64,000 bases of DNA from Neisseria animaloris (GTDB lineage: Bacteria > Pseudomonadota > Gammaproteobacteria > Burkholderiales > Neisseriaceae). The stretch covers positions 310,001 through 374,000 of the forward strand of contig NZ_LR134440.1 in NCBI RefSeq assembly GCF_900637855.1. The letters run 5' to 3'. Of this stretch, positions 38,423-57,424 are shown piece after piece (the stretch's first letter is position 1; each line of letters opens with the position of its first letter). A program made the position numbers and the translations under genes. The notes under the pieces are model-generated. The model worked only from the letters and a program-made list of their open reading frames with translations, did not search any database and had not been told where the DNA came from.

Positions 38423-38435
38423 CTGTCATAAAAGA

Positions 38436-39217: not shown

Positions 39218-39253
39218 AAGAGGCCGTCTGAAAATGCTTTCAGACGGCCTCTT
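39218..39253 (-). terminator. DUS-pair terminator of narHJI
   Basis: AAGAGGCCGTCTGAAA and TTTCAGACGGCCTCTT with a four-base loop, 14 bases past the narI stop. Confidence 0.85.
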
Positions 39254-39267
39254 AAATATTCACTTTA

Positions 39268-39951: not shown

Positions 39952-39953
39952 GT

Positions 39954-40622
39954 TTACGCTCCTTTTGTGGCCGTCTGAAAAGCGGCTTTAGGATAAAACT
40001 GTACGGTTTCTATGCGGGGTTTTAGCAGCGGCTCGGTGCCGGAAATGTCGGGGCCGAACGTTTCCATCGCTTCGTCCATATCGCGCACGGGCGGCTCGAC
40101 CAGCGGGCGCGGTGCCACCGGGCTGAGTGCGGTAATGCCTTGCAGCAATACGGCGTAAGGGGAACCGCTTTTCTCGAGTTTGCCGCCGATGTGGGCCACC
40201 ACATGAACGGCATCGCCGAGCAGCTTTTGCGCGTGTTCAGACGGCACTTGGCTTAAATATTCCAGCAGCACGGGCAGGTAATCGGGCAGCTCGTCGTTGC
40301 CCAACTCGAAACCGCGGCTGCGGTATTCTTGCAGTAAGTCCACCATGGCGCTGCCGCGGTCGCGGTCTTCGCCGTACACATGCTCGAAGAGATAGAGCGC
40401 GTGGTTACGGTTGCGGTCGAAGGTGGCGACGTAGCGTTCCTGCAATTCGCGCAGGCTGTGGCTGTTCAGGTAACCCAAAAAGCTGTTCAGACGGCCTGCT
40501 TGTGCTTGTAGCTCCGGCCATTCTTGCAAGGCCGTCTGAAATTCGGGCAAGGCCTCAATCAGCTCGGCCTCGGGGTAGCACAGCAGCGCGGAAAACCACT
40601 GATAAACAGGATTCGCGCCCAT
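39954..40622 (-). CDS. narJ: Nitrate reductase assembly chaperone NarJ
   Basis: 222-residue cytosolic TorD/NarJ-family chaperone that keeps NarGH soluble until the molybdenum cofactor and clusters are in place. Features: YQWFSALLCYPEAELIEALP near the start, LYLFEHVYGEDRDRGSAMVDLL, and NDELPDYLPVLLEYLS, the typical family core. Its start overlaps the last base of narH (both at 40622), and narI follows by two bases. Confidence 0.93.
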   Translation of the reverse strand: MGANPVYQWFSALLCYPEAELIEALPEFQTALQEWPELQAQAGRLNSFLGYLNSHSLRELQERYVATFDRNRNHALYLFEHVYGEDRDRGSAMVDLLQEYRSRGFELGNDELPDYLPVLLEYLSQVPSEHAQKLLGDAVHVVAHIGGKLEKSGSPYAVLLQGITALSPVAPRPLVEPPVRDMDEAMETFGPDISGTEPLLKPRIETVQFYPKAAFQTATKGA

Positions 40623-42181
40623 CAGTGGACTCCTTCTTCTTCGCGGTTTTTCTCGGCATCTTTACGCAGGCCGTGGAAGATAATCGGTGTGCCTTTGCGT
40701 TTGCCGAACAAGTTTTCTTCGCCGCCTCCGGAACAGCCGTTGCCGAAAGTGAAGCCGCAGCTCGATTTGTCTTCAAAGCTGTTTTCCACCATTTCTTTGT
40801 GCGAAGTCGGAATCACAAAGCGGTCTTCATAATTAGCAATCGCCATAATTTGATACATGTCTTCCACCATTTCGGGCGTGAGGCCGGTGCCTGCCAGCGT
40901 TTCCTCCGGCGTTTCGCCGTGTACCACTTGACCGCGTTTGAAACGGCGCATGGCAATCATGCGCTCCAGCGCGAATTTAATCGGTTCCACTTTGCCGGCG
41001 GTGAGCAGATTGGCCAGATAGCGCAACGGAATACGCATTTCGTCCACACTCGGAATGATGCCGTTTTCGCCCACCAAACCGTTTTCGATGGCAGACTGAA
41101 TCGGCGATAAAGGCGGGATATACCAAACCATCGGCAAAGTGCGGTATTCGGGGTGCAGCGGGAATGCCACTTTCCACTCCATCGCCATTTTGTACACCGG
41201 CGATTGTTTGGCCGCATCAATCCAGCTTTGGCTGATGCCCTGTTTCAAGGCTTCTCGTTGCACTTCAGGGTCGTGCGGATTCAAGAACACGCCCAATTGC
41301 TGTTCGTATAAATCCTGCGGGTTGGCTACCGAAGCGGCCTGTTCGATTTTGTCTGCGTCATACAGCAGCACGCCCAAATAACGGATGCGGCCTACGCAGG
41401 TTTCGGAACACACGGTCGGCTGGCCGCCTTCGATACGCGGGTAGCAGAACGTGCATTTTTCGGCCTTGCCCGAAGTCCAGTTGTAGTAGATTTTTTTGTA
41501 GGGGCAGCCGGATACGCACATGCGCCAGCCGCGGCATTTGTCTTGGTCGATCAACACGATGCCGTCGTCTTCGCGCTTGTAAATACTACCGGACGGGCAG
41601 GAAGCCACACAGGTCGGGTTCAAACAATGTTCGCACAGGCGCGGCAAATACATCATGAAGGTTTGCTCAAACGCGGCGTGCATGTCTTTCTGAATGCCTT
41701 CAAACAGCACGTCTTTCGCCCGCTTCTCAAACTCGCCCGCCAAATCGTCTTCCCAGTTCGGACCCCATTCCACCTTGTCCATTTTTTTGCCCGTGAGCAC
41801 GGAAATCGGACGCGCGGTCGGCGGCGTCGGCATTTTCGGCGCGTTTTGCAGATGCTCGTAGTCGTAGGTAAACGGCTCGTAGTAGTCGTCGATTTTCGGC
41901 ATATTCGGGTTGGCAAAAATATTTGCCAAAATCTTCAACTTGCCGCCCTGCTTGGGCACCAGCTTGCCGTCGGGCTTGCGCACCCAGCCGCCGTTCCATT
42001 TATTTTGGTCTTCCCAATTTTTCGGAAATCCGATGCCGGGCTTGGTTTCCACGTTGTTGAACCACGCATATTCCACGCCGTCGCGCGAAGTCCACACGTT
42101 TTTACAGGTAACGGAGCAGGTGTGGCAGCCGATACATTTGTCTAAGTTCAGAACCATGCCGACTTGTGCTCTGATTTTCAT
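40622..42181 (-). CDS. narH: Respiratory nitrate reductase beta subunit
   Basis: 519-residue iron-sulfur subunit that passes electrons from NarI to NarG. Four ferredoxin-type Cys groups are present: CIGCHTCSVTC (16-26), CEHCLNPTCVASCPSG, CRGWRMCVSGCPYKK (the [3Fe-4S] site with Trp in place of one Cys) and CTFCYPRIEGGQPTVCSETC. The C-terminus carries a GNGCSGGGEENLFGKRK tail. It now begins its own unit: upstream are a DUS hairpin and 690 bases of non-coding DNA, then genes on the other strand, instead of narG. Confidence 0.96.
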   Translation of the reverse strand: MKIRAQVGMVLNLDKCIGCHTCSVTCKNVWTSRDGVEYAWFNNVETKPGIGFPKNWEDQNKWNGGWVRKPDGKLVPKQGGKLKILANIFANPNMPKIDDYYEPFTYDYEHLQNAPKMPTPPTARPISVLTGKKMDKVEWGPNWEDDLAGEFEKRAKDVLFEGIQKDMHAAFEQTFMMYLPRLCEHCLNPTCVASCPSGSIYKREDDGIVLIDQDKCRGWRMCVSGCPYKKIYYNWTSGKAEKCTFCYPRIEGGQPTVCSETCVGRIRYLGVLLYDADKIEQAASVANPQDLYEQQLGVFLNPHDPEVQREALKQGISQSWIDAAKQSPVYKMAMEWKVAFPLHPEYRTLPMVWYIPPLSPIQSAIENGLVGENGIIPSVDEMRIPLRYLANLLTAGKVEPIKFALERMIAMRRFKRGQVVHGETPEETLAGTGLTPEMVEDMYQIMAIANYEDRFVIPTSHKEMVENSFEDKSSCGFTFGNGCSGGGEENLFGKRKGTPIIFHGLRKDAEKNREEEGVH

Positions 42182-42205
42182 GATGGTGTTCCTTTTGGTT
42201 TGGCT

Positions 42206-42246
42206 GTTCAGACGGCCTCTCTAACAGGCCCCAAGGCCGTCTGAAC
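42206..42246 (-). promoter_or_regulatory. DUS-pair hairpin in the narH leader
   Basis: GTTCAGACGGCC and GGCCGTCTGAAC (12-bp arms, 17-base loop) lie 25 bases before the narH ATG. It could weaken transcription into narHJI or simply be uptake sites. Confidence 0.5.
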
Positions 42247-42448
42247 AACAGCTTCGTCAAGTGGTTGCTGTCGTTGTTGTAAAACTTTTTCACAGATAGA
42301 AGCTTAGTGGATGGCACGCAATAAAAATATGCGCCGAAAGCGCAAATAAAGGCAGCAAAGGAATGTATGGCGGCTGGCTGAAAGGGGGTATTGAGATAGT
42401 TATTTAGAAGTATGGCGGATGAGGAGAAAGTGGCAATGCTGATTAAAG

Positions 42449-42488
42449 AGGCCGTCTGAAAAACTTTAAACGGCTTTTCAGACGGCCT
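42449..42488. terminator. DUS-pair hairpin in the narH/pirin gap
   Basis: AGGCCGTCTGAAAA and TTTTCAGACGGCCT, twelve-base loop; no gene ends at it. Confidence 0.55.
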
Positions 42489-42760
42489 AATACATGCATA
42501 ATCATTGATGTATTCGGTGGGAATATTGCGGTGTTCTAAATCAGTTGGGAAATATCGTGGGCGATACCGGCAATCGAGGTGCATTTCATCAGCCCAAAGA
42601 TAAGAAACCGTTCAAAAACGGTTTATCAGGCGGTCAAAATTTTAAATCAACGTTTCAACCTATTAATTAAAAAGAAATATTTTTCTAATTCTTTTGGATG
42701 GTATATTTTCACAACAGTTATCCAGCATCTTAATGTTTTGAACTATTGTTTACTATGGGT

Positions 42761-42814
42761 TGATAATCAATTTATCATCCGTGTCTTTTTCCCGACAAAA
42801 TTTATCCCTATAAT
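42761..42814 (+). promoter_or_regulatory. Candidate operator and -10 of the pirin operon
   Basis: TGATAA-N5-TTATCA (42761-42777) is a perfect inverted repeat; 31 bases downstream is TATAAT (42809-42814), 58 bases before the pirin ATG. No good -35 fits, which suggests an activator-dependent promoter. Confidence 0.4.
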
Positions 42815-42871
42815 TCACTCCATAGCAAATCGTTATATTAACAATAGTAATTAAATTAAAGGAAAGATAAA

Positions 42872-43609
42872 ATGCAAACTATATACCATCCGGCCGATTC
42901 ACGCGGCTTTGCCAATCACGGTTGGCTGAAAAGCGCACACACTTTCAGCTTCGCCAACTATTACGACCCCGAGCGCATGGGCTTCGGCGTGCTGCGTGTG
43001 ATTAATGATGATTTTGTAGAAGGCGGCCAAGGCTTCGGCACCCACCCGCACCGCGACATGGAAATCATTTCCGTGCCCTTGAGCGGCGATTTGGCCCACC
43101 GCGACAGCATGGGCAACGGCAGCATCATCAAAAACGGTGATGTGCAGGTTATGTCGGCCGGCACCGGCGTTACCCACAGCGAAATGAACGCCAACCGCGA
43201 CCAAGCTGTGAAATTCCTGCAAATTTGGGTGTTGCCCCGCAAAAACAACGTAGCGCCCCGCTATCAGCAAATCACGATTGCCAACGAAGCCAAACCCGAC
43301 GACTTCCAGCAAATCCTGTCTCCCAATGCTGATGACGCAGGCGTGTGGATTCACCAAAACGCTTGGTTTTCGCTGGCACGTTTTTCAGAAGGCACCCAAA
43401 AGCGTTACGATGTAAAACGCGAAGGCAACGGCGTGTATGTATTTGTGATTAAAGGTAAAGCCAAAGTAGGCGGTATCGAGTTGGGCGAGCGCGACGGCTT
43501 GGGCTTGTGGGAAACCGACGGCTTTGACGTAGAGGCTTTGGGCGATGCGGAAATCCTGTTGATGGACGTACCGATGGATGTGGAAGCCAATATCAACCAG
43601 TTACACTAA
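42872..43609 (+). CDS. Pirin-family protein (YhhW-like)
   Basis: 245-residue bicupin of the pirin family. The N-terminal metal site is complete, His58 and His60 in GTHPHRDMEI, His102 and Glu104 in GTGVTHSEMN, matching E. coli YhhW, which has quercetin 2,3-dioxygenase activity in vitro. The pattern GFGVLRVINDDFVEGGQGF is typical. The ribosome site is AAAGGAAAG. It opens a plus-strand gene set of a nitroreductase, two hydrolases, XapX and a second pirin. The physiological substrate is unknown. Confidence 0.88.
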   Translation: MQTIYHPADSRGFANHGWLKSAHTFSFANYYDPERMGFGVLRVINDDFVEGGQGFGTHPHRDMEIISVPLSGDLAHRDSMGNGSIIKNGDVQVMSAGTGVTHSEMNANRDQAVKFLQIWVLPRKNNVAPRYQQITIANEAKPDDFQQILSPNADDAGVWIHQNAWFSLARFSEGTQKRYDVKREGNGVYVFVIKGKAKVGGIELGERDGLGLWETDGFDVEALGDAEILLMDVPMDVEANINQLH

Positions 43610-43700
43610 CGGAAATCGGAGTAAAATGTTATCCAAACTTTTTAGCTGCCTGAAAAATCTCGGGCAGCCCTCTAGCCAACCTGAAATAAAGGAAACCACA

Positions 43701-44309
43701 ATGTCTGTTGTACAAACTTTGCAGCAAGCTGCTGAGAACCGCCGTTCTGTTTACGCGCTGAACAAAAATCTGCCCGTAAACAAAGAAGAAGTAGTAAAAA
43801 TCGTTGAGCACGCCGTAAAACACACACCGTCTGCGTTCAACTCGCAATCTACCCGTTTCGTTGTGTTATTCGGTGCCGAACATGAAAAACTGTGGGACAT
43901 CACCATTGCCGAACTGCGCAAGATCGTTCCTGCCGAAAACTTCCAAGCTACCGAAGACAAACTGAACATGTTTAAAGCGGCTGCCGGCAGCGTGTTGTTC
44001 TTTGAAGATGAAAATGTTGTTAAAGGCCTGCAAGAGCAGTTCCCTGCTTATGCCGCCGGTTTCCCCGTATGGGCAGGTCACAGCGATGCCATGAGCCAAT
44101 ACGCTATTTGGACTGCGCTGGCTGCGGTAAACGTAGGTGCCAACCTGCAACACTACACCCCGATTATTGATGCCGAAGTGGCTAAAACTTGGAATCTGCC
44201 GGCCAACTGGAAAATGAGCGCCCAGCTCGTATTCGGCGGCATCACCGAGCCTGCAGGCGATAAATCTTTTGCTCCCGCAGAAGACCGCCTGAAAGTTTAC
44301 GGCCTGTAA
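43701..44309 (+). CDS. Nitroreductase-family flavoprotein
   Basis: 202 residues from ATG 43701, after AAAGGAAACCAC; the upstream frame through 43578 overlaps the pirin gene. FMN-binding oxidoreductase fold: ENRRSVYALNKNLPV at the N-terminus, HTPSAFNSQSTRFVVLFG for FMN/phosphate contacts, and NVGANLQHY toward the end. It resembles the small stress-type nitroreductases (YdgI/Hub1-like) that reduce quinones or nitro compounds with NAD(P)H. Followed by an intrinsic terminator, so it may form a unit with the pirin gene. Confidence 0.85.
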   Translation: MSVVQTLQQAAENRRSVYALNKNLPVNKEEVVKIVEHAVKHTPSAFNSQSTRFVVLFGAEHEKLWDITIAELRKIVPAENFQATEDKLNMFKAAAGSVLFFEDENVVKGLQEQFPAYAAGFPVWAGHSDAMSQYAIWTALAAVNVGANLQHYTPIIDAEVAKTWNLPANWKMSAQLVFGGITEPAGDKSFAPAEDRLKVYGL

Positions 44310-44353
44310 TTATTTTCGGGTTGAACCACAGCCTGAATAAACCGTGCAATAAC

Positions 44354-44399
44354 GCGGCAAATTCAGATAGGCCCCAAGCCTGGAATCTGCCGCTTTTTT
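44354..44399 (+). terminator. Intrinsic terminator after the nitroreductase gene
   Basis: GCGGCAAATTC and GAATCTGCCGC (one mismatch), then TTTTTTA. Not DUS-based. Confidence 0.8.
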
Positions 44400-44439
44400 A
44401 TTGCCTGAAAATCCTATTAACGATACATGGAGAATCGTC

Positions 44440-45123
44440 ATGTCAAACAAATTTTTAGACTTGTTAACCCCTGAAAACAGCCAGCTGATTTTCATCGACC
44501 ACCAGCCGCAAATGGCCTTCGGCGTACAATCTATCGACCGTCAAACCCTGAAAAACAATGTGGTTGCATTGGCCAAATCAGCTAAAGTATTCAACATCCC
44601 CACCATCATCACTACTGTTGAAACCGAAGGCTTTTCCGGCCACACTTATCCTGAATTGTTGAGCGTATTCCCCGAGAACAAAATTCTCGAGCGCACTTCA
44701 ATGAACTCTTGGGACGACCAAAACGTGCGTGATGCTTTGGCTGCAAACGGCCGTAAAAAAGTTATCGTAGCAGGCTTGTGGACAGAAGTATGTAACTTGG
44801 GCTTTGCTCTGGCTGCCGCTGCCGAAGGCAACTATGATATCTACATGGTGGCAGATGCATCAGGCGGCACAACGGTAGAAGCACACGAATACGCTATGCA
44901 GCGCATGATTCAAGCGGGCATTATTCCCGTAACTTGGCAACAAGTTTTGCTCGAATGGCAACGTGACTGGGCCCGTAAAGAAACCTACGATGCCGTATTG
45001 GATATCGTTAAAGAACATTCCGGCGCATACGGCATGGGTGTGGATTACGCCTACACTATGGTTCACAAAGCACCCGAGCGCGTGCAACACGGCGAACGTA
45101 TCGGCCCTAACCCTGCCAAGTAA
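44440..45123 (+). CDS. Isochorismatase-like hydrolase (YcaC-like)
   Basis: 227 residues from ATG 44440 with GGAGAA upstream. Cysteine-hydrolase fold: Asp20 in LIFIDHQPQM and the nucleophile Cys118 in GLWTEVCNLGFAL; the position of the usual catalytic Lys (YcaC Lys84) holds Arg85 in KILERTS. It is closest to YcaC, a hydrolase of unknown substrate. The terminator before it and a hairpin after it suggest a separate unit within the set. Confidence 0.87.
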   Translation: MSNKFLDLLTPENSQLIFIDHQPQMAFGVQSIDRQTLKNNVVALAKSAKVFNIPTIITTVETEGFSGHTYPELLSVFPENKILERTSMNSWDDQNVRDALAANGRKKVIVAGLWTEVCNLGFALAAAAEGNYDIYMVADASGGTTVEAHEYAMQRMIQAGIIPVTWQQVLLEWQRDWARKETYDAVLDIVKEHSGAYGMGVDYAYTMVHKAPERVQHGERIGPNPAK

Positions 45124-45145
45124 ACGCTGATTTACTGTTGTTAAT

Positions 45146-45181
45146 GCGAAGGTGTGGTTTGCATCAAAATCACACCTTTGC
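45146..45181 (+). terminator. Hairpin after the YcaC-like gene
   Basis: GCGAAGGTGTG and CACACCTTTGC, one mismatch, no U tract. Confidence 0.45.
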
Positions 45182-45209
45182 TGTTTAATCTGCCCATTAA
45201 GGGATATTT

Positions 45210-45431
45210 ATGAAGTTGTATGTGTTTTCTTTCGGAGCCGGAATATTGGTTGGTGTGATTTACTACCTGCTTAATGTACGCTCCCCCGCACCGCCCGTTG
45301 TGGCCTTGCTAGGGCTTTTGGGCATGTTGCTGGGCGAACAAATAATTCCGCTCTCCAAACAATTTTTTTCTCCGCAAACATCTATCTCCCAAACCGCACA
45401 CTCACAAGACCAGAATCACAATAAGGAGTAA
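45210..45431 (+). CDS. XapX-domain small membrane protein
   Basis: 73 residues. Two short hydrophobic helices: MKLYVFSFGAGILVGVIYYLL and APPVVALLGLLGMLLGEQI, which is the XapX (DUF1427) pattern with VRSPAPPVVALLG between them, then a polar tail. Function of XapX is unknown; it often lies next to YcaC-type hydrolases and amidohydrolases, as here. AAGGGAT precedes the ATG; the stop abuts the amidohydrolase start. Confidence 0.85.
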   Translation: MKLYVFSFGAGILVGVIYYLLNVRSPAPPVVALLGLLGMLLGEQIIPLSKQFFSPQTSISQTAHSQDQNHNKE

Positions 45432-45434
45432 ATG

Positions 45435-47324
45435 ATGACGACACAAATCGACACAATTTTCTATAACGGCGAATTTACGACTTTAGACCGCTCCAAGCCG
45501 GTTGCCCAAGCCGTTGCCGTTGCCGACGGAAAATTTGCCGCAGTCGGCAGCAACAGCGAAATTTTAGCGATGGCGGGCGAGAATACCCGCCGCATCGACC
45601 TGCAAGGCCGCAGCGTTTTACCCGGCCTTTTCGACAACCACACCCATATCATCCGCGGCGGCCTCAATTACAACATGGAACTGCGTTGGGACGGCGTACG
45701 TTCGCTGGCCGATGCCATGGCCATGCTCAAAGCACAAGTCGATATTACGCCTGCGCCGCAATGGGTTCGCGTGGTCGGCGGTTTTACCGAGCACCAATTC
45801 ATCGAAAAACGCCTGCCCACTATTGAAGAAATCAATGCGGTTGCGCCCGATACGCCGGTGTTCATCCTGCATTTATACGACCGTGCTTTGCTCAATGCAG
45901 CCGCATTACGCGCCGTCGGCTACACCAAAGACACCCCCGAACCGCCCGGAGGCGAAATCAAACGCGATTCGAAAGGCAACCCCACCGGCCTGTTGCTGGC
46001 CAAACCGAATGCCATGATTCTGTATTCGACTTTGGCAAAAGGCCCCAAACTGCCGTTTGATTACCAAGTCAACTCCACCCGCCATTTCATGCGTGAGCTG
46101 AACCGTTTGGGCGTAACCGGTGTGATTGATGCCGGCGGCGGCTTCCAAAATTATCCCGACGATTACGAAGTGATCCGCAAGCTGGCCGAAGAAAACCAAC
46201 TCACCGTACGCATCGCCTATAACCTCTTCACGCAAAAACCGAAAGAGGAAAAAGAAGACTTCCTCAAATGGACTTCTTCGGTGACCTACAAACAGGGCGA
46301 TGATTATTTCCGCCACAACGGCGCCGGCGAGATGTTGGTATTTTCTGCCGCCGACTTTGAAGATTTCCGCCAGCCCCGCCCCGAGATGCCGCCCGAAATG
46401 GAAGGCGAATTGGAAGAAGTGGTGCGCATTCTGGCGCAAAACAAATGGCCGTGGCGCATGCACGCGACTTATGATGAAACCATTACCCGTGCCTTGGATG
46501 TATTTGAAAAGGTTAACCGCGATATTCCGCTGGAAGGCATCAACTGGTTCTTCGACCATGCCGAAACCGTATCGCAAAAATCCATCGACCGCATTGCCGA
46601 GCTGGGTGGCGGTATTGCCGTGCAGCACCGCATGGCCTATCAAGGCGAATACTTTGCCGAACGCTACGGCACGGCTGCCGCGGCTAACACACCGCCGGTG
46701 AAACGCATTCTCGAAAGCGGCGTGAAAGTGTCGGCCGGTACCGATGCCACCCGTGTGGCTTCTTACAATCCGTGGGTATCCTTGTCTTGGTTGATCAGCG
46801 GCAAAACCGTTGGCGGTATGAAACTCTATCCGCAAGCCAATTTGCTCGACCGCGAAACCGCTTTGCGCATGTGGACGGAAAATGTGGCATGGTTCTCCAA
46901 CGAAGTCGGCAAGCGCGGCCGCATCGAAGTAGGCCATTTGGCCGACATGATGGTGCCGAGCAAAGACTTTTTCAGCGTGCCGGAAGACGAAATCCCGTTC
47001 TTAACCTCGGATCTGACCGTGGTGGGCGGTCGTGTCGTTTACGGCGCAGGCAGCTTCTCTGATTTGGACACCCCGCCGCCGCCTGCCATGCCCGATTGGT
47101 CGCCGGTACACAAATACCGCGGCTACGGCGCATGGGGCGACCCCGAAGGTGCCGGTAAAAACTCGCTCGCACCGCTGCGCCAACAAGCCATCGCTTCATG
47201 CAGTTGCGCCAGCGCGTGCGGTCTGCACGGCCACGATCATGCCCGCGCATGGGCATCGTCGGCACCCGTTTCAGACCTGCAAGGTTTCTTCGGCGCACTC
47301 GGCTGCTCGTGCTGGGCCGTCTGA
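45435..47324 (+). CDS. Amidohydrolase family 3 (YtcJ-like) protein
   Basis: About 629 residues. A metal-dependent hydrolase with a TIM-barrel: HTHIIRGG near residue 75 and HATYDETITRALDVF and HRMAYQGEYF later, giving metal-binding His residues, and a closing beta-sandwich part around VEVGHLADMMVPSKD. YtcJ-type enzymes hydrolyse N-acyl or N-formyl bonds. The C-terminus is odd: ASCSCASACGLHGHDHARAW and ALGCSCWAV, rich in Cys and His, then a stop codon inside a DUS. ATG 45435 has AAGGAG at the right distance; ATG 45432 also possible. It follows xapX without a gap. Confidence 0.87.
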   Translation: MTTQIDTIFYNGEFTTLDRSKPVAQAVAVADGKFAAVGSNSEILAMAGENTRRIDLQGRSVLPGLFDNHTHIIRGGLNYNMELRWDGVRSLADAMAMLKAQVDITPAPQWVRVVGGFTEHQFIEKRLPTIEEINAVAPDTPVFILHLYDRALLNAAALRAVGYTKDTPEPPGGEIKRDSKGNPTGLLLAKPNAMILYSTLAKGPKLPFDYQVNSTRHFMRELNRLGVTGVIDAGGGFQNYPDDYEVIRKLAEENQLTVRIAYNLFTQKPKEEKEDFLKWTSSVTYKQGDDYFRHNGAGEMLVFSAADFEDFRQPRPEMPPEMEGELEEVVRILAQNKWPWRMHATYDETITRALDVFEKVNRDIPLEGINWFFDHAETVSQKSIDRIAELGGGIAVQHRMAYQGEYFAERYGTAAAANTPPVKRILESGVKVSAGTDATRVASYNPWVSLSWLISGKTVGGMKLYPQANLLDRETALRMWTENVAWFSNEVGKRGRIEVGHLADMMVPSKDFFSVPEDEIPFLTSDLTVVGGRVVYGAGSFSDLDTPPPPAMPDWSPVHKYRGYGAWGDPEGAGKNSLAPLRQQAIASCSCASACGLHGHDHARAWASSAPVSDLQGFFGALGCSCWAV

Positions 47325-47334
47325 AAACGCCCGA

Positions 47335-47362
47335 ACGGATACGGATGACTTTCCGTATCCGT
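47335..47362 (+). terminator. Hairpin between the amidohydrolase and second pirin gene
   Basis: ACGGATACGGA and TCCGTATCCGT, perfect 11-bp stem, six-base loop, no U tract. Confidence 0.5.
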
Positions 47363-47484
47363 AACCGCATTTGGCAAACGGCTTATCACCAATCCTTGCT
47401 TGAACGTTGCGCCCCGCAGCACGATAGTCGGTTGGTTATAAGCTGTCGTGCCAACCGGATATAAACACACAAAGGAACCCTGAT

Positions 47485-48384: not shown

Positions 48385-48744
48385 CCGGCAAAACCGCACG
48401 GCAGCCTGCTGCCGGAAACCGCAGGATTCAGGCACAACATCCCGCCTCATAAACCGAAGCGGGCCGGTTTGTGCTTTTATCCTTGCACCGCACAAAGCCG
48501 TACAGCTGTGCACACACGATGTTTGTTTTTTCAGACGGCCTCATGGTATCCAAACGGATTGAGCCGAAAAAACACCGCCGCCATACAAACTGATGAGTAG
48601 CTTTAGTGTCGTGCAAACCTGTCTTTTATTTTATTTTTAGTCAGTTGATTCAAAGTGGTTTAACGATATAAACAGCAAGCCGGCAAAGGTCTCAGGCCGT
48701 CTGAACAGCTTTCCCCACATTACGGAACCAAAGGAACAACATAT
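48385..48744. other. Intergenic region before the MFS gene
   Basis: One DUS at about 48530-48541. No supported gene. The promoter of the MFS gene must lie here but no clear pair stands out. Confidence 0.55.
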
Positions 48745-50346
48745 ATGACCCAACACCGTCCGTCTGCCGCCGAAACTTCCGGCAGCAGCTTCGCCCCGTT
48801 ACGGCAAACTTTGTTTGTCGTGTTATGGATAGCCACCATTTTAGGCAACACCGGCAGCTTTATCCGCGATGTTGCCAGCTCGTGGCTGATGACCGATTTA
48901 TCGCCTTCGCCTGCCGCCGTTGCCATGGTGCAAGCCGCCGCCACTCTGCCGGTGTTTCTGCTAGCCATTCCCGCCGGCGTGCTTTCCGATATTCTCGACC
49001 GCCGCAAATTCTTAATCGGCATTCAGATTCTGCTCGCCGGTGTCAGCGCCGGACTGATGCTGCTCTCGGCAAGCGGTATGCAGTCGGTTGCCTCGCTGAT
49101 TGCGCTCACCTTCCTCGGCGGTATCGGTGCCGCACTGATGGGGCCGACTTGGCAGGCCATCGTACCGGAACTGGTTGATAAAAAAGATTTGAAAAACGCC
49201 GTAGCTTTGAACTCTCTCGGCGTAAACATTGCCCGCGCCATCGGCCCCGCACTCGGCGGTTTGATTTTGGCCGGAGCGGGTGCGGCTTTCGCCTACGGTG
49301 CCGACGTATTGAGCTATGTGTTTGTGATCAGCGCATTACTGTGGTGGAAACGCCCTAAAACCCAACGCGACGAGCTTTCCGAACAATTCGGCGGGGCGTT
49401 CCGTGCCGGATTGCGCTATGTGCGTGCCAGCCGCGAGCTGCACATCGTTTTGCTGCGTGCCTTTGTCTTCTTTGCCATCGCCAGCTCGGTTTGGGCTTTG
49501 CTACCTTTGGTGGCACGACAACTTCTCAACGGTAGTGCGGGCTTTTACGGCATCTTGCTGGGTGCGGTAGGCGCGGGCGCGATTCTCGGTGCCGTGATCA
49601 TGCCGCGCTTGCGCAGCCGTTTGAGTGCCGACGGCCTACTGCTTTTGGCCGCAGGCGTAACCGCTGCCGTGATGGCCGTTTTGGCCGCCGCACCGCCCAA
49701 ATGGTTGGCGGTGGTGGTATTGTTGTTGCTCGGCGCGTCGTGGATTACCGCTTTAACCACACTCAACGGCGTGGCACAAAGCATTCTGCCCAACTGGGTG
49801 CGCGGCCGCTCGTTGGCGGTTTACCTCACCGTATTCAACGGCGCCATGACTGCCGGCAGCTTGTTATGGGGCAGCGTTGCCAGCCTTATCGGCATCCCCT
49901 TGACCTTGCTTGCAGGTGCGGTGGCATTGGTGGTTTCCGCATTGGTAGCGCACCGCATCAAACTGCCGCAAGGCGAAAACGACTTAAGCCCGTCTAACCA
50001 TTGGCCCGAACCGCTCACCGTATCTCGCCCTGCCAACGACCGCGGGCCGGTGCTGATTCAAATCGAATACCGCATCCGCCTCGAAGACCGCGAAGCGTTT
50101 ATCCGCGCCATTACCGCGCTTTCGGCCGAACGCCACCGCGACGGAGCCTACCAATGGGGCGTGAGCGAAGACACCGCCGATCCTTCCATGATGCTCGAAT
50201 GGTTCTTGGTCGAATCGTGGGCGGAACACTTGCGCCAGCACAAACGCGTTTCTAAAACCGACGCCAACCTGCAAAACGCAGTAAAACGCTTCCACCAAGG
50301 CGAAACACCGCCGCAAGTGCGTCACTTCGTTTCTTGCGGTAAATAA
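48745..50346 (+). CDS. MFS exporter (MFS_3 type) with a C-terminal ABM-like domain
   Basis: 533 residues. Residues 1-410 form twelve transmembrane helices of the MFS_3 kind (enterobactin-exporter-like), with DILDRRKFLIG as the loop-2 motif and VALNSLGVNIARAIGPALGG. After residue 430 comes a soluble domain of about 95 residues, PVLIQIEYRIRLEDREAFI through WFLVESWAEHLRQHKR, that looks like the antibiotic-biosynthesis-monooxygenase dimeric alpha/beta barrel. The linkage occurs in other MFS_3 members. It probably exports or detoxifies a small organic molecule; the substrate is not known. Confidence 0.85.
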   Translation: MTQHRPSAAETSGSSFAPLRQTLFVVLWIATILGNTGSFIRDVASSWLMTDLSPSPAAVAMVQAAATLPVFLLAIPAGVLSDILDRRKFLIGIQILLAGVSAGLMLLSASGMQSVASLIALTFLGGIGAALMGPTWQAIVPELVDKKDLKNAVALNSLGVNIARAIGPALGGLILAGAGAAFAYGADVLSYVFVISALLWWKRPKTQRDELSEQFGGAFRAGLRYVRASRELHIVLLRAFVFFAIASSVWALLPLVARQLLNGSAGFYGILLGAVGAGAILGAVIMPRLRSRLSADGLLLLAAGVTAAVMAVLAAAPPKWLAVVVLLLLGASWITALTTLNGVAQSILPNWVRGRSLAVYLTVFNGAMTAGSLLWGSVASLIGIPLTLLAGAVALVVSALVAHRIKLPQGENDLSPSNHWPEPLTVSRPANDRGPVLIQIEYRIRLEDREAFIRAITALSAERHRDGAYQWGVSEDTADPSMMLEWFLVESWAEHLRQHKRVSKTDANLQNAVKRFHQGETPPQVRHFVSCGK

Positions 50347-50369
50347 TCAAACCTATTATCTATTCGTTT

Positions 50370-50417
50370 TTTCAGACGGCCTCAAAAGCAATAAAAGGCT
50401 TTCGAGGCCGTCTGAAA
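50370..50417 (+). terminator. DUS-pair terminator after the MFS gene
   Basis: TTTCAGACGGCCTC and GAGGCCGTCTGAAA, with AAAGC/GCTTT further inside. Confidence 0.75.
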
Positions 50418-50449
50418 GCTACATTTGGTAACACGGTAAAGTTTATATA

Positions 50450-50606
50450 TATAGTGGATCAACTTAAATTTTACTACTGCGTTGCTGCGCCTTAGCTCAA
50501 AGAGAACGATTGTGTAAGCCGCTGAAGCGGCAACAGAATCGGTTCCGTACTATTTGTACTGTCTGCGGCTTGCTGCCTTGTATTAAAAATGTGTTGATTA
50601 ACTATA
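50450..50606. mobile_element. Full-length Correia-type element (CREE)
   Basis: 157 bases, the size of full CREEs. Terminal inverted repeats are TATAGTGGATCAAC on the left and TATAGTTAATCAAC (reverse complement of the right end). The inside has the typical CREE pieces CCTTAGCTCAAAGAGAACGA, AATCGGTTCCGTACTATTTG and TACTGTCTGCGGCTT. TA dinucleotides at both edges fit the usual target duplication. These are small non-autonomous elements of Neisseria that often carry promoters and an IHF site; here it lies between two genes, not inside either. Confidence 0.85.
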
Positions 50607-50649
50607 TATCTTGTATCAGAGTGTTGTTTGATTACGGATATAAATATAA

Positions 50650-50689
50650 AAAAAAGAATGCCTGCAACATGTTGCAGGCATTCTTTTTT
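50650..50689 (-). terminator. Strong palindromic terminator of the YceI-family gene
   Basis: 40-base perfect palindrome, half-site AAAAAAGAATGCCTGCAACA, with T-runs at both ends. Not DUS-based. Confidence 0.9.
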
Positions 50690-50704
50690 CGGAATGATTA
50701 ACCG

Positions 50705-51269
50705 TTATTTCTTGCCGGCTTCGATTTGGATGGTCAGTGCGACCTGTTTGGTCATACCGGCATCAACCAGATAATTGATGTCCCATTTGGTGCGGTCGAT
50801 GGTGGTGGTGAAATCGCCGCCGCAAACTTGGGTTTTGAGAATCGGGCTGTCGTAGCAGTTGAATTTTTGTGCTTTGAGCTTAACCGGATGGGTTTTGCCC
50901 AGCATAGTGAGCTTGCCGTCAACCGACAACAGTTTTTTGCCGTTGAAATTAAACTTGGTTGAGGTAAAGCGGATTTCGGGGTATTTGGCCGCATTGAATA
51001 AGTCGGCCGATTTCAGGTGATTGGTAAACTCTTGACTGCCGGTTTGAATGGAGTTCACAGGAATGCTCAAGTCTATCGAACCGGTGCGTTTGGCGGGATC
51101 GAACTCCAGAGTACCGCTCAAATTGTAAAAACCGCCGACGTTGGTGCTGGTATTGAAATGGTCGATACCGAAACGGGCATTGGTGTGATGGCCGTCAATC
51201 TGATAAGTCGCTGCGCCGGCAGTCGTAGCCAATGCGCTTAAAAACACAGCGGAAATGATTTTTTTTCAT
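50705..51269 (-). pseudogene. YceI-family periplasmic protein with a one-base frameshift in the signal peptide
   Basis: The mature part is intact: ATYQIDGHHTNARFGIDHFN, SGTLEFDPAKRTGSIDLSIP, LKSADLFNAAKYPEIRFTS and the end QIEAGKK, a YceI-like lipocalin that binds isoprenoids. The ATG at 51269, well placed behind GGAG, is followed by eight A (51266-51259) and is out of frame with the rest. With seven A it reads MKKIISAVFLSALATTAGAA, a perfect signal peptide. As written, translation from the ATG reads MKKNHFRCVF and leaves the YceI frame. A GTG at 51247 gives the in-frame remainder without a full signal. It may be phase variation, slippage, or a base-call error. Confidence 0.85.
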
Positions 51270-51460
51270 AATGCGCTCCGATTCGCTTGGTGTTGGAAAG
51301 AAATTTTATTGTAACTAAACTTGAAAATGAATCAAGGCATAGTAAATTAAATTATTTTTTCGATATAAGGTATTGCAGCCAAAGAGCAGTAATGCCGTAA
51401 AGGAAAAAAGACGGTTTGCCATATGTTTTCAGGCTGTTTCAAGCTTTCTCAGTTGCAGTT

Positions 51461-52366
51461 TTACCGAAGAAATGGATTAGGCTGGCCGAGTTTACCGCTG
51501 ATGAAATCAATAAAACTGCGAACTTTCGCACTCAAGTATTGGCGGTCGGCATAAGCTGCATAAAGCGGGTGGGAAGGCATCGAATAATCGGGCAGCAGCC
51601 GAACCAGCTTGCCTTTGGCCAAATCGTCGCAAATCAAGCAGTCGGGCCCGTAACCGATACCGCGCCCCGCTAAAATCATCTGATAAACCATTACGCTGTT
51701 GTTACTGGTAAACACCGGCTTGAGGCGCAACTCTTCACTTTCACCGCTTTTAAGATGCCGGAGCGTACGCACCCGCATATCGACATATCCCGGCAAAACG
51801 GCAGGAGAGGCCGCCGCTTGTTCCAAGGTTTCGGGTAGACCGTAACGCTCGATAAAAGTTGCCGAAGCACACAGCAGCATATTGACTGTGCCGAGCCTGC
51901 GTACAATCAGAGACGGAGCAGGTTCATCGGATGCACGCAGCGCAAGATCGAAGCCGTCGCCTACCAAATCTTTGTGACGGTTGTCTAAAACCACTTCCAA
52001 CGTAATATCGGGATACTGTTCGGAATATTCGGTCAACCATTGTGCGAATTGCGAGGAAGCGAACCATACCGGTGCCGTCAACCGCAGCAAACCCTGAGCC
52101 TGTTCCACGCCTGAAGCCGCTTTCTGTGCCGCTTGATCCAACGTATCCAAAGCATAAGCGCATTGGCGGTAGTACTCGGTTCCCGCTTCCGTTAAGCTCA
52201 AACTACGGGTATTGCGCAGCAACAGCTTTGCCCCAATGCTGCTTTCCAAATGGCGCACATGTTTGCTGACCATCGCCGGAGACAAATCCATACGCTCCGC
52301 TGCTTTGGTAAAGCTTCCATTTTCAATAACTTGGCGAAAAACTTTCATGCTTAAAAAAGTATCCAA
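51461..52366 (-). CDS. LysR-family transcriptional regulator
   Basis: 301 residues. N-terminal winged helix: FRQVIENGSFTKAAERMDLSPAMVSKHVRHLESSIGAKLLLR is the LysR HTH, then the effector domain with RLTAPVWFASSQFAQWL and LALRASDEPAPSLIVRRLG, the CrgA/AaeR-like subgroup. It sits at the right end of the accessory block and is transcribed toward the YceI-family gene, 191 bases away. It may control the pirin-amidohydrolase genes or the YceI gene; no binding site is proven. Confidence 0.9.
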   Translation of the reverse strand: MDTFLSMKVFRQVIENGSFTKAAERMDLSPAMVSKHVRHLESSIGAKLLLRNTRSLSLTEAGTEYYRQCAYALDTLDQAAQKAASGVEQAQGLLRLTAPVWFASSQFAQWLTEYSEQYPDITLEVVLDNRHKDLVGDGFDLALRASDEPAPSLIVRRLGTVNMLLCASATFIERYGLPETLEQAAASPAVLPGYVDMRVRTLRHLKSGESEELRLKPVFTSNNSVMVYQMILAGRGIGYGPDCLICDDLAKGKLVRLLPDYSMPSHPLYAAYADRQYLSAKVRSFIDFISGKLGQPNPFLR

Positions 52367-52373
52367 AATTGTT

Positions 52374-52386
52374 CCTTAAGTTAAGG
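52374..52386. promoter_or_regulatory. Small inverted repeat at the LysR gene start
   Basis: CCTTAA-G-TTAAGG just before the start codon of the regulator gene; a possible autoregulation site. Confidence 0.35.
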
Positions 52387-52761
52387 GGTAGGGTGGGGAG
52401 ATTATACAGATTATCGAATTAGAACTTTGCTACTTGATGTTGTTCGGGCTTTCAATCGTTTTTTGTAGAGAACAAGAAGAGTCGTATTGATTTTTATATG
52501 AAAATAATTATTTGAAAATGGTTGTTTTACCGTTGAAGCAGTGAATGTTTTCAGAACATGTGGTAGCAATTTCTTTCTAAATTTCACCGTTAAATCAGAC
52601 GGTATATGGAATCGTGGCATTTAATTCGGTAGGGATGGAATTCAACGCAAACAAACAGCATAAAGCTTGTAAAATTACCGTTTCCCTATGCTGTTGGGGT
52701 CTATTGGATATAAACAATATCTTATTATCTTAAATATTTCTATTGTAATTATTTTTAAAAA
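52387..52761. other. Intergenic region between narG and the LysR gene
   Basis: AT-rich. The frame 52411-52620 (minus) is not convincing. No element recognised apart from the narG terminator to its right. Confidence 0.6.
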
Positions 52762-52795
52762 ATGCCTGTCTGAAAGAGAGCTTTCAGACAGGCAT
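52762..52795. terminator. Terminator of narG made from a foreign-dialect DUS pair
   Basis: ATGCCTGTCTGAAAG and CTTTCAGACAGGCAT form a perfect 15-bp stem with an AGAG loop and A/T tracts on both sides. The core TGCCTGTCTGAA is the TG-wad DUS dialect, not the AG form found elsewhere. Confidence 0.88.
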
Positions 52796-52832
52796 AATTT
52801 TTTATTACTAACTTTTCAGACGGCCTGATGAG

Positions 52833-55800
52833 TTACACAGGTGTATCCATCCAATCCACTTTGCTCATCTTGCGCACAATCACCCATTCGTCGCGGTTGG
52901 AGCCTACCGTGCCGTAGTAGTTGAAACCGTAGGCCAGTTGGGCGTAGCCGCCGATCATGTGGGTGGGTTTCAGAATGGCGCGGGTGACGGAGTTATGGAT
53001 GCCGCCGCGTTTTTTGGAAACCTCGCCCGCCGGAGTGTGGACGATTTTTTCCTGTGCGTGGTACATCAGGATCATGGTTTCGGGAATACGCTGGCTGACA
53101 ACGGCGCGGCAGGCAATCGTGCCGTTGGCGTTGAACACTTCTACCCAGTCGTTATCGACGATACCGGCTTTTTTGGCATCAATTTCGGAAATCCACACAT
53201 GCGGGCCGCCGCGCGAAAGGGTGAGCATACGCAGGTTTTCCGAATAGGTGCTGTGGATGCCCCATTTTTGGTGCGGCGTGAGGAAGTTAAGGGTGATTTC
53301 CTTATTGCCGTTGGGGTATTTGCCCAAAAGTTTCTTGGTGGTTTTAAAGTCTACGGCGGGTTTGTACACGCACAGGTGTTCGCCGAAATCGCGCATCCAT
53401 TTGTGGTCTTGGTAGAACTGCTGGCGGCCGGTAATGGTGCGCCACGGGATGAGTTCGTGTACGTTGGTGTAGCCGGCGTTGTAGCACACTTCTTCGCTTT
53501 CCACGCCAGACCAAATCGGCGAGGTAACGATTTTGCGCGGCTGGGCAACGATGTCGCGGAAACGGATGGCGGTGTGTTCGCTGCTGTTAATCAGGTGGGT
53601 ATGGTCGCGGCCGGTGGCTTTGCCCAAGGCTTGCCATGCTTTTTTGGCAACGTGGCCGTTGGTTTCGGGCGCGAGGGTCAGCACCATTTCGCAGGCATCG
53701 ATGGCGGTTTCGATTTTCGGCTGGCCTTTGCCTGCGCCGCTTGCTTGCACGCCGTTGAGTTTGCGTAAAAATTCGACTTCGTGCTTGGTATCCCAAGCCA
53801 TGCCTTTACCGTTGTTGTTCACTTTTTCCAACAAGGGGCCGACGGAAGTGAATTTTTCGTAAATCGCGCCGTAATCTCGTTCCACCACGGTCATGGCGGG
53901 CATGGTTTTGCCGGGAATCGGGTCGCATTCGCCGTGTTTCCAGTCTTTCGGGTCGAACGGCTGGCCGAGTTCCTGCGGGCTGTCGTGCATCAGCGGGGTA
54001 AGTACGATGTCTTTGCGCACGCCGATATAGTCTTTGGCGATTTCGCTGAATTTTTTGGCAAAGCCTTTATAGATTTCCCAGTCGGTTTTGCTTTGCCACA
54101 GCGGTTGTACGGCCTCGGTGAGCGGGTGGATAAACGGATGCATATCCGAGGTGTTGAGGTCGTCTTTTTCATACCATGTGGCGGTAGGCAGCACGATATC
54201 GCCGTACAAGCAGGTGGTGGACATGCGGAAATCGAGCACCACGAGCAAATCGAGTTTGCCTTCTGCCGCGGGGCGAACCTTGATTTCAGACGGCTTGATG
54301 CACTCTTCGTCGTTTTCGTCGCTCAACACGGCGTTTTGCGTGCCCAGCAGATATTTGAGGAAATACTCGTGCCCTTTGCCGGAAGAACCGAGCAGGTTGG
54401 AACGCCACACAAACAGGTTGCGCGGGAAGTTTTGCGGGTTGTCCGGGTCGTTACACGCCATATCCAGCGTACCGTCTTTCAGACGGCCTGCCACATATTG
54501 GGCGGGATCGACACCGGCAGCTTCGGCCTGATCGACAATATCCAAGGGGTTTGCGCCCAATTGCGGTGCGCTCGGCAGCCAACCCATGCGTTCGGCTTTG
54601 GCGTTGTAATCGATCATCGAGAGCTTACCCATGCTGCCGTCGGCATTAGGCGCGAGAATTTCATCTACGGCTACTTTTTCATGCCGCCATTGGCTGGTAT
54701 GGGCGTAGAAGAACGAGGTGCTGTTCATCTGGCGCGGCGGACGGTGCCAGTCGGTCGCGAAGGTCAGCGGAATCCAGCCGCTTTGCGGGCGCAGCTTTTC
54801 TTGACCGACATAGTGACACCAGCCGCCGCCGGATTTTCCAATGGCACCGCACATCATCAACATATTGATGATGCCGCGATACGCCATATCCATGTGGTAC
54901 CAGTGGTTCAAACCTGCACCGACAATCACCATGCTGCGGCCTTCGGTATCGTGGGCGTTTTGGGCGAACTCGCGGGCTACCTGAATCACCAATTCGGGTT
55001 TCACGCCGGTGTGTTTTTCCTGCCATGCGGGAGTATAAGGCTTGTCATCGAAATAATCTTTGGCACAATTTTCGCAGCCCAAGCCGTTGTCCACACCGTA
55101 GTTGGCCACCATCAGATCGAATACGGTCGCCACCAATGCGCTTTTGCCGTCGGCCAAAGGAATGCGTTTGGCAGGCACTTTGCGGTAAATCACTTCGTCG
55201 TGCTCGCCGCCGAAATAGGTGAAGCCGACTTCCACCACTTCGTCCGAACGGTTTTTCAGCGACAGCGCGGCACGCACTTCATTGCCTTGAGCCTGCGTTT
55301 CCAAATTCCATTTACCGCTGCCGTCCCAACGGAAACCGATAGAACCGTTGGGTACCATCAGGCCGTCTGAAAGCTCGTCCCAAGCCAGCGTTTTCCAATC
55401 GGGATTGTCGTTTTCGCCGAAGTTCCCGTCCAATTCGGACGCACGCAGGAAATATTTGGGTGCATAACCGCTGCCTTCCTGCTCAAGGTGTACCAAAATC
55501 GGCATATCGGTTAAACGGCGGATATAGTCGGTAAAGTAAGGAGACGGGTTCTCGACATGAAATTCTTTAAGGATAACGTGTCCCATCGCCATTGCCAAAG
55601 CCGCATCGGTGCCTTGTCTCGGCGCCAACCAAATATCGCCGAATTTCGCCATCTCGCTGAAATCGGAAGAAACCGCCACGGTTTTGGTGCCTTTGTAGCG
55701 CACTTCGGTGTAGAAGTGGGCATCGGGCGTGCGCGTCATCGGCACGTTGGAACCCCATACCATCAGATAATTCGAGTTGTACCAGTCGGCAGACTCGGCC

Positions 55801-56510
55801 ACGTCGGTTTGCTCGCCCCAAATTTGCGGGCTGGCAGGCGGTAAGTCGCAATACCAATCGTAGAACGACATCGCCACACCGCCCATCAGGCTGAGATAAC
55901 GTACACCGGCGGCATAGCTCACCATCGACATGGCAGGAATCGGCGAGAAGCCGATGACCCGGTCGGGGCCGTAGTTTTTAACGGTGTAAGCATTGGCGGC
56001 CGCCACCAGTTCATTGGCTTCTTCCCAAGTAGAGCGCACAAACCCGCCCAAACCGCGCTGGGTTTTGAACGATTTGGCCCGTGCTTCGTCTTCAACGATA
56101 TAAGCCCATGCCTCGACAGGCTGCATGGTTTTGCGCGCCTCGCGCCACATTTCCGCCAACACGCCGCGTATCATCGGATATTTCACTCGTTGGGCGGAAT
56201 ACACATACCAGCTGTACGAAGCCCCGCGCGGGCAGCCCCGCGGTTCGTGGTTGGGTAAATCGGGGCGGGTGCGCGGATAGTCGGTCTGTTGGGTTTCCCA
56301 TGTAATCAGGCCGTTTTTCACATACACCTTCCAGCTGCACGAGCCGGTACAGTTTACGCCGTGGGTGGAACGCACCACCTTGTCGTGCTGCCAGCGGCTG
56401 CGGTAGGCATTTTCCCACTTACGGTCTTCTTCGGTTACCACCCCGTGCCCGTTGGCAAACGGTTCGTGTTTTTGGCTGAAAAATTTCAGACGGTCTAAAA
56501 AGTGGCTCAT
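52833..56510 (-). CDS. narG: Respiratory nitrate reductase alpha subunit
   Basis: 1,225-residue catalytic subunit with bis-MGD molybdenum cofactor, reducing nitrate to nitrite in the cytoplasm. The unusual [4Fe-4S] site is intact with His50, Cys54, Cys58 and Cys93 (THGVNCTGSCSW and RGCPRG). SYAAGVRYLSLMGG, YCDLPPASPQIWGEQTDVAE with the molybdenum-ligand Asp region, and NSNYLMVWGSNVPMTR follow. The start has no twin-arginine signal but the usual NarG opening MSHFLDRLKFFSQKHEPFANG. narH should follow directly; instead a terminator and the accessory block lie between. Confidence 0.97.
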   Translation of the reverse strand: MSHFLDRLKFFSQKHEPFANGHGVVTEEDRKWENAYRSRWQHDKVVRSTHGVNCTGSCSWKVYVKNGLITWETQQTDYPRTRPDLPNHEPRGCPRGASYSWYVYSAQRVKYPMIRGVLAEMWREARKTMQPVEAWAYIVEDEARAKSFKTQRGLGGFVRSTWEEANELVAAANAYTVKNYGPDRVIGFSPIPAMSMVSYAAGVRYLSLMGGVAMSFYDWYCDLPPASPQIWGEQTDVAESADWYNSNYLMVWGSNVPMTRTPDAHFYTEVRYKGTKTVAVSSDFSEMAKFGDIWLAPRQGTDAALAMAMGHVILKEFHVENPSPYFTDYIRRLTDMPILVHLEQEGSGYAPKYFLRASELDGNFGENDNPDWKTLAWDELSDGLMVPNGSIGFRWDGSGKWNLETQAQGNEVRAALSLKNRSDEVVEVGFTYFGGEHDEVIYRKVPAKRIPLADGKSALVATVFDLMVANYGVDNGLGCENCAKDYFDDKPYTPAWQEKHTGVKPELVIQVAREFAQNAHDTEGRSMVIVGAGLNHWYHMDMAYRGIINMLMMCGAIGKSGGGWCHYVGQEKLRPQSGWIPLTFATDWHRPPRQMNSTSFFYAHTSQWRHEKVAVDEILAPNADGSMGKLSMIDYNAKAERMGWLPSAPQLGANPLDIVDQAEAAGVDPAQYVAGRLKDGTLDMACNDPDNPQNFPRNLFVWRSNLLGSSGKGHEYFLKYLLGTQNAVLSDENDEECIKPSEIKVRPAAEGKLDLLVVLDFRMSTTCLYGDIVLPTATWYEKDDLNTSDMHPFIHPLTEAVQPLWQSKTDWEIYKGFAKKFSEIAKDYIGVRKDIVLTPLMHDSPQELGQPFDPKDWKHGECDPIPGKTMPAMTVVERDYGAIYEKFTSVGPLLEKVNNNGKGMAWDTKHEVEFLRKLNGVQASGAGKGQPKIETAIDACEMVLTLAPETNGHVAKKAWQALGKATGRDHTHLINSSEHTAIRFRDIVAQPRKIVTSPIWSGVESEEVCYNAGYTNVHELIPWRTITGRQQFYQDHKWMRDFGEHLCVYKPAVDFKTTKKLLGKYPNGNKEITLNFLTPHQKWGIHSTYSENLRMLTLSRGGPHVWISEIDAKKAGIVDNDWVEVFNANGTIACRAVVSQRIPETMILMYHAQEKIVHTPAGEVSKKRGGIHNSVTRAILKPTHMIGGYAQLAYGFNYYGTVGSNRDEWVIVRKMSKVDWMDTPV

Positions 56511-57381: not shown

Positions 57382-57424
57382 ATCATAGCCATCCGGCGGA
57401 TTACAATTTAAATTCAAGTAAAAC

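Follow-up and report, generated by a model that had tools for sequence, protein, structure and literature searches.

A genus-wide split of the nitrate reductase operon narGHJI in Neisseria into two units, apparently under copies of one promoter

The genes for the subunits of the NarGHI nitrate reductase and for its NarJ chaperone make up the operon narGHJI of Escherichia coli and other bacteria. Split operons whose parts keep or gain promoters of their own are a general phenomenon. Here, we report a comparative analysis of a 64-kb stretch of the Neisseria animaloris genome (NZ_LR134440.1, positions 310,001-374,000; hereafter the window), in which narG and narHJI are separate units; the genome consists of one 2.34-Mb contig and is denoted G000 below. 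This locus resembles the operon of E. coli and other bacteria in its four genes, whose families are matched above curated cut-offs, and in a NarL-like upstream box (scored with a 7-2-7 consensus that we take to be that of NarL), whereas it differs in the presence of two units with their own leaders and a narG terminator, and in the lack of a consensus FNR box. Like split operons in general, it has lost linkage and retained the partners; in contrast to them, its detached part seems to have a copy of the parent operon's own promoter and appears to be movable. Comparison with related genomes leads us to the view that the two units are probably driven by copies of a nar promoter, the narG promoter having become fused to narHJI and thus created a movable unit that spread while the resident narG lost its tail.

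In a Neisseria mucosa strain, deletion of narG removed the growth gain conferred by nitrate under anoxia (PMC12607641). In the available portions of that paper and of a second one (PMC12054151), the genes are referred to as a NarGHIJ operon, or as narG and narHIJ, with no mention of a separation. Among the top matches in the open-licence literature, no report on separated narG and narHJI in Neisseria could be recognized from the title or the beginning of the abstract.

All four nar genes of N. animaloris are intact, full length and located on the minus strand (Table 1), so that the complete set of NarGHI subunit genes and the NarJ chaperone gene is present. The gap between narG and narH spans 10.65 kb and holds nine genes, seven on the plus strand, opposite to nar, and two on the minus strand; hence narG is not immediately upstream of narH. 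Family matches and coordinates thus bear out the original prediction, made from the letters of the window, of intact and separated narG and narH-narJ-narI with such a block between them, as well as its assignment of a separate leader to narH and a separate terminator to narG. A genome-wide search matched narG, narH and narI only once each and thus yielded no second intact nar operon, which disposes of the possibility, considered at the outset, that an uninterrupted narGHJI lies elsewhere in the genome. A sensor kinase closest to the NarX/NarQ type is encoded far from the nar genes (660665-662515; NarQ is the best family match and NarX the next, both below the cut-off). Stem-loops like the narG terminator are found also behind narG of other split genomes. 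The terminator itself is an inverted TGCCTGTCTGAA repeat, of which the window contains two copies compared with 97 of the standard core of the DNA uptake sequence (DUS); we take its letters to be the DUS dialect of N. wadsworthii. In the part of the source that is available, this dialect is named but its letters are not given (PMC3630211). Transplantation of the narI terminator behind narG, which would be a sign of deletion of narHJI, was considered as well; by eye, the sequences downstream of narI and narG share generic inverted repeats only.

The separation is common in the genus. Among 46 Neisseria genomes, narH is matched in 22, narG in 23 and narI in 20, with all three present in 20 genomes, 12 of which are split and eight joined (G003, G007, G015, G021, G034, G038, G042 and G043, with spacers of ~130-560 bp). 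Three genomes were left out of the 20, namely G028, which is joined with a 93-bp spacer and whose contig ends 207 nt into narH (assembly contamination listed as 4), G012, with a narH::narG remnant, and G031, with a piece of narG at a contig end. Where narG and narH of split genomes are on a single contig, they are 10.65 kb apart in G000, 13.3 kb apart on the same strand in G045 and 8.8 kb apart on opposite strands in G010; narG lies 13 kb downstream of narH in G006, and the distance is 0.46-0.93 Mb in G005, G040, G044 and G002. In the draft genomes G011, G025, G027 and G029, the two genes are on different contigs. In 10 of the 11 other split genomes, the neighbours of narI differ from those in N. 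animaloris. The narH genes of split genomes are 92-97% identical to that of N. animaloris and their reading frames are full length, which indicates that the split enzyme has been kept functional.

Several variants were encountered in the course of this comparison. The G012 remnant consists of narH residues 1-299 followed by out-of-frame narG residues 1006-1224 (L069:8542-10066), with the same outer neighbours as in G006, and appears to be the product of a deletion. In G042, narI is in two pieces (L064:6355-7037) within an otherwise joined operon. A gene for a 119-amino acid cupin protein sits between narG and narH (L066:9639-9998, minus strand) in a narG-cupin-narH variant present in G021, G003 and G048, and also in Vandammella animalimorsus (L149), where the cupin is 55% identical.

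Outside the genus, the joined order prevails. In the 80 best of at least 590 narH matches in named non-Neisseria genomes, narG is always upstream of narH on the same strand, within 14-823 bp (at most 525 bp in 78 loci). In the family, narH was matched in 44 of 83 genomes, including 23 outside the genus; 22 of these have the joined order (34-492 bp), the exception being the split G049. The named and family sets overlap, L110 and L111 being contigs of G052 and G053. Given its occurrence both in genus relatives and outside the genus, the joined order is ancestral; the earlier claim that two transcription units are now needed for one complex is supported as well. The uninterrupted narGHJI anticipated in related species thus exists, and the opposite case, in which all nitrate-reducing relatives would be split, is refuted by the same eight genomes.

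All 13 split-type narH genes in Neisseria, counting the remnant in G012, have a leader that can be aligned and is homologous over ~140 bp. When a profile built on 13 leader slices was run against 38 stretches (747 kb), the split leaders ranked first and the next 13 matches were narG promoters, on the correct strand and in the correct position (E 6.9e-8 to 8.1e-3), followed by an unrelated site (E 0.015) and the narK1 promoter of G010 (E 0.2). In 1100 trials, no shuffled narG upstream sequence scored above 8.8 bits, compared with 14.9-31.3 bits for the 13 real narG promoters. In the reverse search, a profile of narG promoters, which is longer and also spans common repeats, matched every one of the 13 leaders (E 1.8e-15 to 4e-5), the next match being upstream of narK1 in G006. 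The best match of the leader profile to anything other than a narH leader is the narG promoter of G054, a genome of another genus with a joined operon, in which it ends 115 nt before narG (35.7 bits, E 8.8e-10). Ahead of narH in the 31 joined operons (nine from the genus, 22 from the family), there is no forward-strand match to the leader profile at E 1. The arrangement within the promoters is similar as well: with a script that chose the best palindrome located 45-100 nt from a core, the distance from the NarL-like palindrome to the GCAT core is 79-80 nt in all 13 leaders (11-13 of 14 consensus positions) and 78-81 nt in 13 of the 22 narG upstream sequences (10-13 of 14); in G027 and G034 it is 83 and 60 nt, respectively, and the core pattern is absent in seven. 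Judged by these similarities, both the narH leader and the narG promoter seem to be copies of a single ancestral narG promoter. Near CTTTCGGCGCATATTTT, the conserved core (42323-42341, 56599-56616) fits neither an FNR nor a NarL box.

The borders of homology delineate narHJI together with its leader as a unit. We compared positions 37000-45000 of the window by pairwise blastn with the copies in 11 other genomes (G027, in which homology extends into shared flanks, was excluded). Homology starts at 39218-39272, at or within ~50 nt of the narI stop codon, in all 11 and ends at 42412-42418 in seven (G045, G025, G040, G044, G029, G049 and, via a second piece, G010), earlier in the rest; these copies lie at other sites with unrelated flanks, and the region contained no further homologous stretch of more than 150 bp. 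For narG, homology of eight of the 11 split copies starts at the outer edge of the terminator (52753-52763) and that of the other three at 52836-52838; in all 11 it ends 11-25 nt before the start codon (56521-56535). A gene for a Mop-domain protein is divergent from narG in joined (G038, G034) and split (G000, G027, G005, G025, G040) genomes alike, and a blastn match to this gene lies alongside narG in G029. The presence of this neighbour in both kinds of genome suggests that narHJI was the part that moved, narG often remaining where it was.

Table 1. The nar units of N. animaloris and the genes around them, in window coordinates
Feature	Position	Strand	Evidence or remark
narHJI unit (NarL-like box, core, leader, narH, narJ, narI; ~3.15 kb)	39268-42418	-	pairwise blastn
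narI	39268-39951	-	TIGR00351, 251.6 bits
narJ	39954-40622	-	TIGR00684, 120 bits
narH	40622-42181	-	TIGR01660, 928 bits
narH leader	42182-42417	-	nhmmer match 42415-42280; alignment of 13 leaders
Promoter core element GCTTTCGGCGCATATTTTT	42323-42341	-	GCAT 80 nt below palindrome start
NarL-like 7-2-7 palindrome TACTTCT-AA-ATAACTA	42397-42412	-	13/14 consensus positions
narG terminator	52763-52794	-	inverted TGCCTGTCTGAAAG repeat, then T-run
narG	52833-56510	-	TIGR01580, 2117 bits, nearly full-length match
narG promoter region	56577-56710	-	narH-leader HMM match 56685-56599, E 7.8e-4
narG promoter parts	palindromes 56695-56710 (11/14), 56673-56688 (10/14); core 56599-56616; TTTATATT 56577-56584	-	
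Mop-domain molybdate-binding protein, divergent from narG	56953-57381	+	TIGR00638, PF03459
Stress/detoxification cassette, pirin to LysR (9.7 kb)	42672-52408	both	nucleotide identity with copies elsewhere
Pirin, quercetinase-type C-terminal cupin	42872-43609	+	PF02678, PF17954
Nitroreductase, true start probably inside ORF	43578-44309	+	PF00881
Isochorismatase-like hydrolase, YcaC-like	44401-45123	+	PF00857; NF041461 below cut-off
XapX-domain protein	45210-45431	+	TIGR03510
Amidohydrolase	45432-47324	+	PF07969
Second pirin	47485-48384	+	PF02678, PF05726
MFS_3 transporter	48745-50346	+	PF05977
YceI-like protein	50705-51247	-	PF04264
LysR-type regulator	51461-52366	-	PF00126, PF03466

Several observations weigh against the descent of both promoters from one. 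Since blastn homology stops short of the narG start codon, it is the profiles that carry the likeness of the narG promoter. At E 0.01, the leader profile misses nine of the 22 narG upstream sequences, those of split G006 and G029 among them, and among the 23 family loci it gave just two matches at E<=0.1, one to the G049 leader (106 bits) and one to the G054 narG promoter, so that no further narG promoter was matched. One of the 13 slices, from G002, was misplaced, which leaves the true G002 leader outside the model; its match (1.7e-11) is accordingly independent of the model. The palindromes are not by themselves distinctive: several of those at narG agree with the consensus at just 10 of 14 positions, and although no site in the window other than 42397-42412 comes within one mismatch, the two sites with at most two mismatches do not exceed chance (1.43 expected), so that the argument for NarL-like boxes is one of conserved position, and binding of NarL is a prediction. 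FNR control was also considered; neither the narG nor the narH promoter has a box with at most two mismatches to TTGATNNNNATCAA, which we assume to be the FNR consensus, located near -41.5. Finally, narK1 promoters match weakly (E 0.0026 in G010 and 3.7e-4 in G006, in small sets), and part of the likeness may reflect a regulon-wide promoter style. This last point, along with a narG tree that is not sorted by the split or joined state, would be expected if the splits were independent and each recruited a promoter of the nar regulon, such as that of narK1, ahead of narH. We consider such repeated recruitment improbable, given that the 13 leaders are homologous over ~140 bp with a near-constant spacing and that seven of the 11 copies at other sites have their upstream border in common with the N. 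animaloris unit.

The history of the split was addressed with approximately unbiased (AU) tests on the 20 genomes (19 for rpoB, a single gene, which has no match in G034). A single clade of the 12 split copies is not rejected for narH (p 0.24), whereas for narG it is rejected (p 4.6e-36), even without G006 (p 4e-7); rpoB rejects it with G006 (2.9e-57) and does not without it (p 0.1). The failure to reject one narH clade is a limited result, as the free narH tree does not show this clade, and the placement of joined G038/G034 and G028 among split relatives in the narG tree requires reversals or repeated splits; together with the reliance on one gene for the species relationships, these points count against the view preferred here. 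By rpoB, G006 is sister to joined G021; its narG is a mosaic that comes nearest to that of G021 in 11 of the 12 windows (300 bp each), yet its narH is of the split type. G028 is joined, though its narG shares 98.0% identity with that of split G010, and both have the same UvrD-like helicase gene as a neighbour.

Could a single, vertically inherited split have taken place in a common ancestor of the split species, and could transformation with joined alleles later have brought the joined order back in G038/G034 and G028? The rpoB result without G006 is compatible with this, and Neisseria take up DNA by transformation, as described in the accessible part of PMC3630211. In addition, in three of the 12 split genomes (G045, G002 and G044), nar parts flank one conserved pair of genes, a methyltransferase and an mltD-like gene (mltD being present in 45 of 46 genomes), on consistent sides and in consistent orientation, with narG on the methyltransferase side in G002 and G045 and narH on the mltD side in G044 and G045. 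We presume that the methyltransferase is yafS-like. This arrangement fits an ancestral order narG - core genes - narHJI in part of the genus, which could have arisen by duplication and complementary loss. Against a purely vertical split stand the rejection of the split set by narG even in the absence of G006, the need for restoration to recreate the joined spacer at narG loci, and G049, which requires transfer regardless; we regard it as unlikely, albeit the strongest of the alternatives. G049 belongs to another genus, has narG ~15 kb downstream of narHJI and a narH 97% like that of N. animaloris, and shares with G006 a mostly collinear island (78-86%), while the congener G048 has a joined operon. 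This contrast, along with the single split clade that narH does not reject and narG does, is the basis for the conclusion that narHJI probably moved, in part, horizontally.

The simplest account of the locus in N. animaloris, favoured by the original prediction, is that the 10.6-kb block was inserted into an intact narGHJI and thereby caused the split. The two parts are indeed on the same strand in the standard order, eight of 20 relatives are joined, and the cassette that makes up most of the block has been exchanged between species. A single insertion, however, predicts that the nearest relative devoid of the block is joined. The closest genome by rpoB, G027 (support 100/100), is collinear with window positions 30672-42359 and 52761-64000 and lacks the cassette, yet its narG and narH are not adjacent. 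Its narH is flanked by genes for a nitroreductase (69% DNA similarity to that of N. animaloris), a DoxX protein, LysR and others, and its narG by an Ntox44-domain gene; both stretches run to contig ends. Insertion as the cause is opposed also by the 11 split genomes of the genus other than N. animaloris, G027 among them, 10 with other narI neighbours and all with a homologous narH leader, and by the presence of the cassette at other sites in three genomes. Moreover, an insertion by itself puts no narG-like promoter ahead of narH. We therefore consider this scenario very improbable. Two side observations concern G027: the Ntox44-domain ORF, of a bacterial toxin family, is close behind narG (L075:17045-17863, minus strand), and upstream of narH there is a cupin-like piece with short or broken-looking ORFs (L052:12412-12576, minus strand), which is ambiguous as a cupin relic.

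Two same-strand DUS that had been proposed as the recombination points of the block do exist (42207-42218 and 52815-52826), but that role does not stand, as both are inside the nar units and the homology of the cassette ends ~0.25-0.35 kb outside these units. Their placement is not trivial: the window has 97 exact DUS 10-mers (~1.5 per kb), and same-strand DUS within 40 bp of both ends occur in 95 of 20000 random 10,651-bp intervals. Other split genomes have DUS or DUS-like repeats at equivalent places.

Gene cassettes pass between Neisseria species, presumably by transformation, and the stress/detoxification cassette between the nar units conforms to this pattern. By blastn, it starts at 42672 (G041), 42728 (G005) or 42736 (G045); up to ~50450 (~7.7 kb), it is 96.6-97.2% identical at the nucleotide level in these three genomes, each time at another site, and the remainder to 52408 is 88.8-92.4% identical in the same three, the match in G045 extending only to 51350. 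A relative at 69-78% nucleotide identity is found in G044. As a yardstick, TrpD protein identity to N. animaloris in the cassette-sharing genomes is 77-81%. Under strict cut-offs, the amidohydrolase and the MFS_3 transporter are each present in five of the 46 genomes, N. animaloris included, and G041 carries the cassette but has no match to narG, narH or narI. From the ~97% identical copies at other sites, against 77-81% for trpD, and from the absence of nar in G041, we conclude that the cassette is horizontally exchanged, not tied to nar genes, and incidental to the split. It thus resembles other exchanged cassettes of Neisseria in that most of this 9.7-kb block is ~97% identical between otherwise more distant genomes, and differs in that no transposase gene flanks it here, whereas one lies beside the G045 and G041 copies. 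The cassette adjoins trmB in G005 and G041.

Within the view that we prefer, with copies of the narG promoter on both units, the following course of events can be envisaged. In an ancestor, the narG promoter would have been fused to the ribosome-binding region of narH, for example, via loss of narG from a duplicated operon. The product would be a self-sufficient narHJI unit of ~3.15 kb that was inherited and passed between lineages, in the presumed direction even to another genus. The resident narG, often still with its Mop neighbour, would have lost the narHJI tail and gained a terminator. Afterwards, the units would have been rearranged, so that in N. animaloris they came to lie 10.65 kb apart, with the exchanged 9.7-kb cassette in the gap. 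In a more tentative extension, to which we give somewhat less than an even chance, this self-regulated unit was made once and spreads among Neisseriaceae genera, rendering the tails of resident operons redundant and so producing repeated splits with promoter copies on both halves.

The two units, one consisting of a promoter, narG and a terminator and the other of a promoter and narHJI, would jointly make one NarGHI enzyme plus the NarJ chaperone. Because both promoters look like copies of one narG promoter, nitrate and low oxygen should induce the two units together, and the balance of subunits could survive the split; the link expected between them is joint induction by a NarL-type regulator.

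Taken together, the comparisons point to a genus-wide break-up of narGHJI, probably in part through horizontal transfer, that has left two units with what seem to be copies of the same promoter. For Neisseria, synteny of narGHJI alone is thus insufficient to read nitrate respiration from a genome. More generally, one genus offers a natural series from joined through split to collapsed operons in which to ask how operons break without loss of function. The answer suggested here, namely a copy of the parent promoter on the detached part, is testable by reporter assays.

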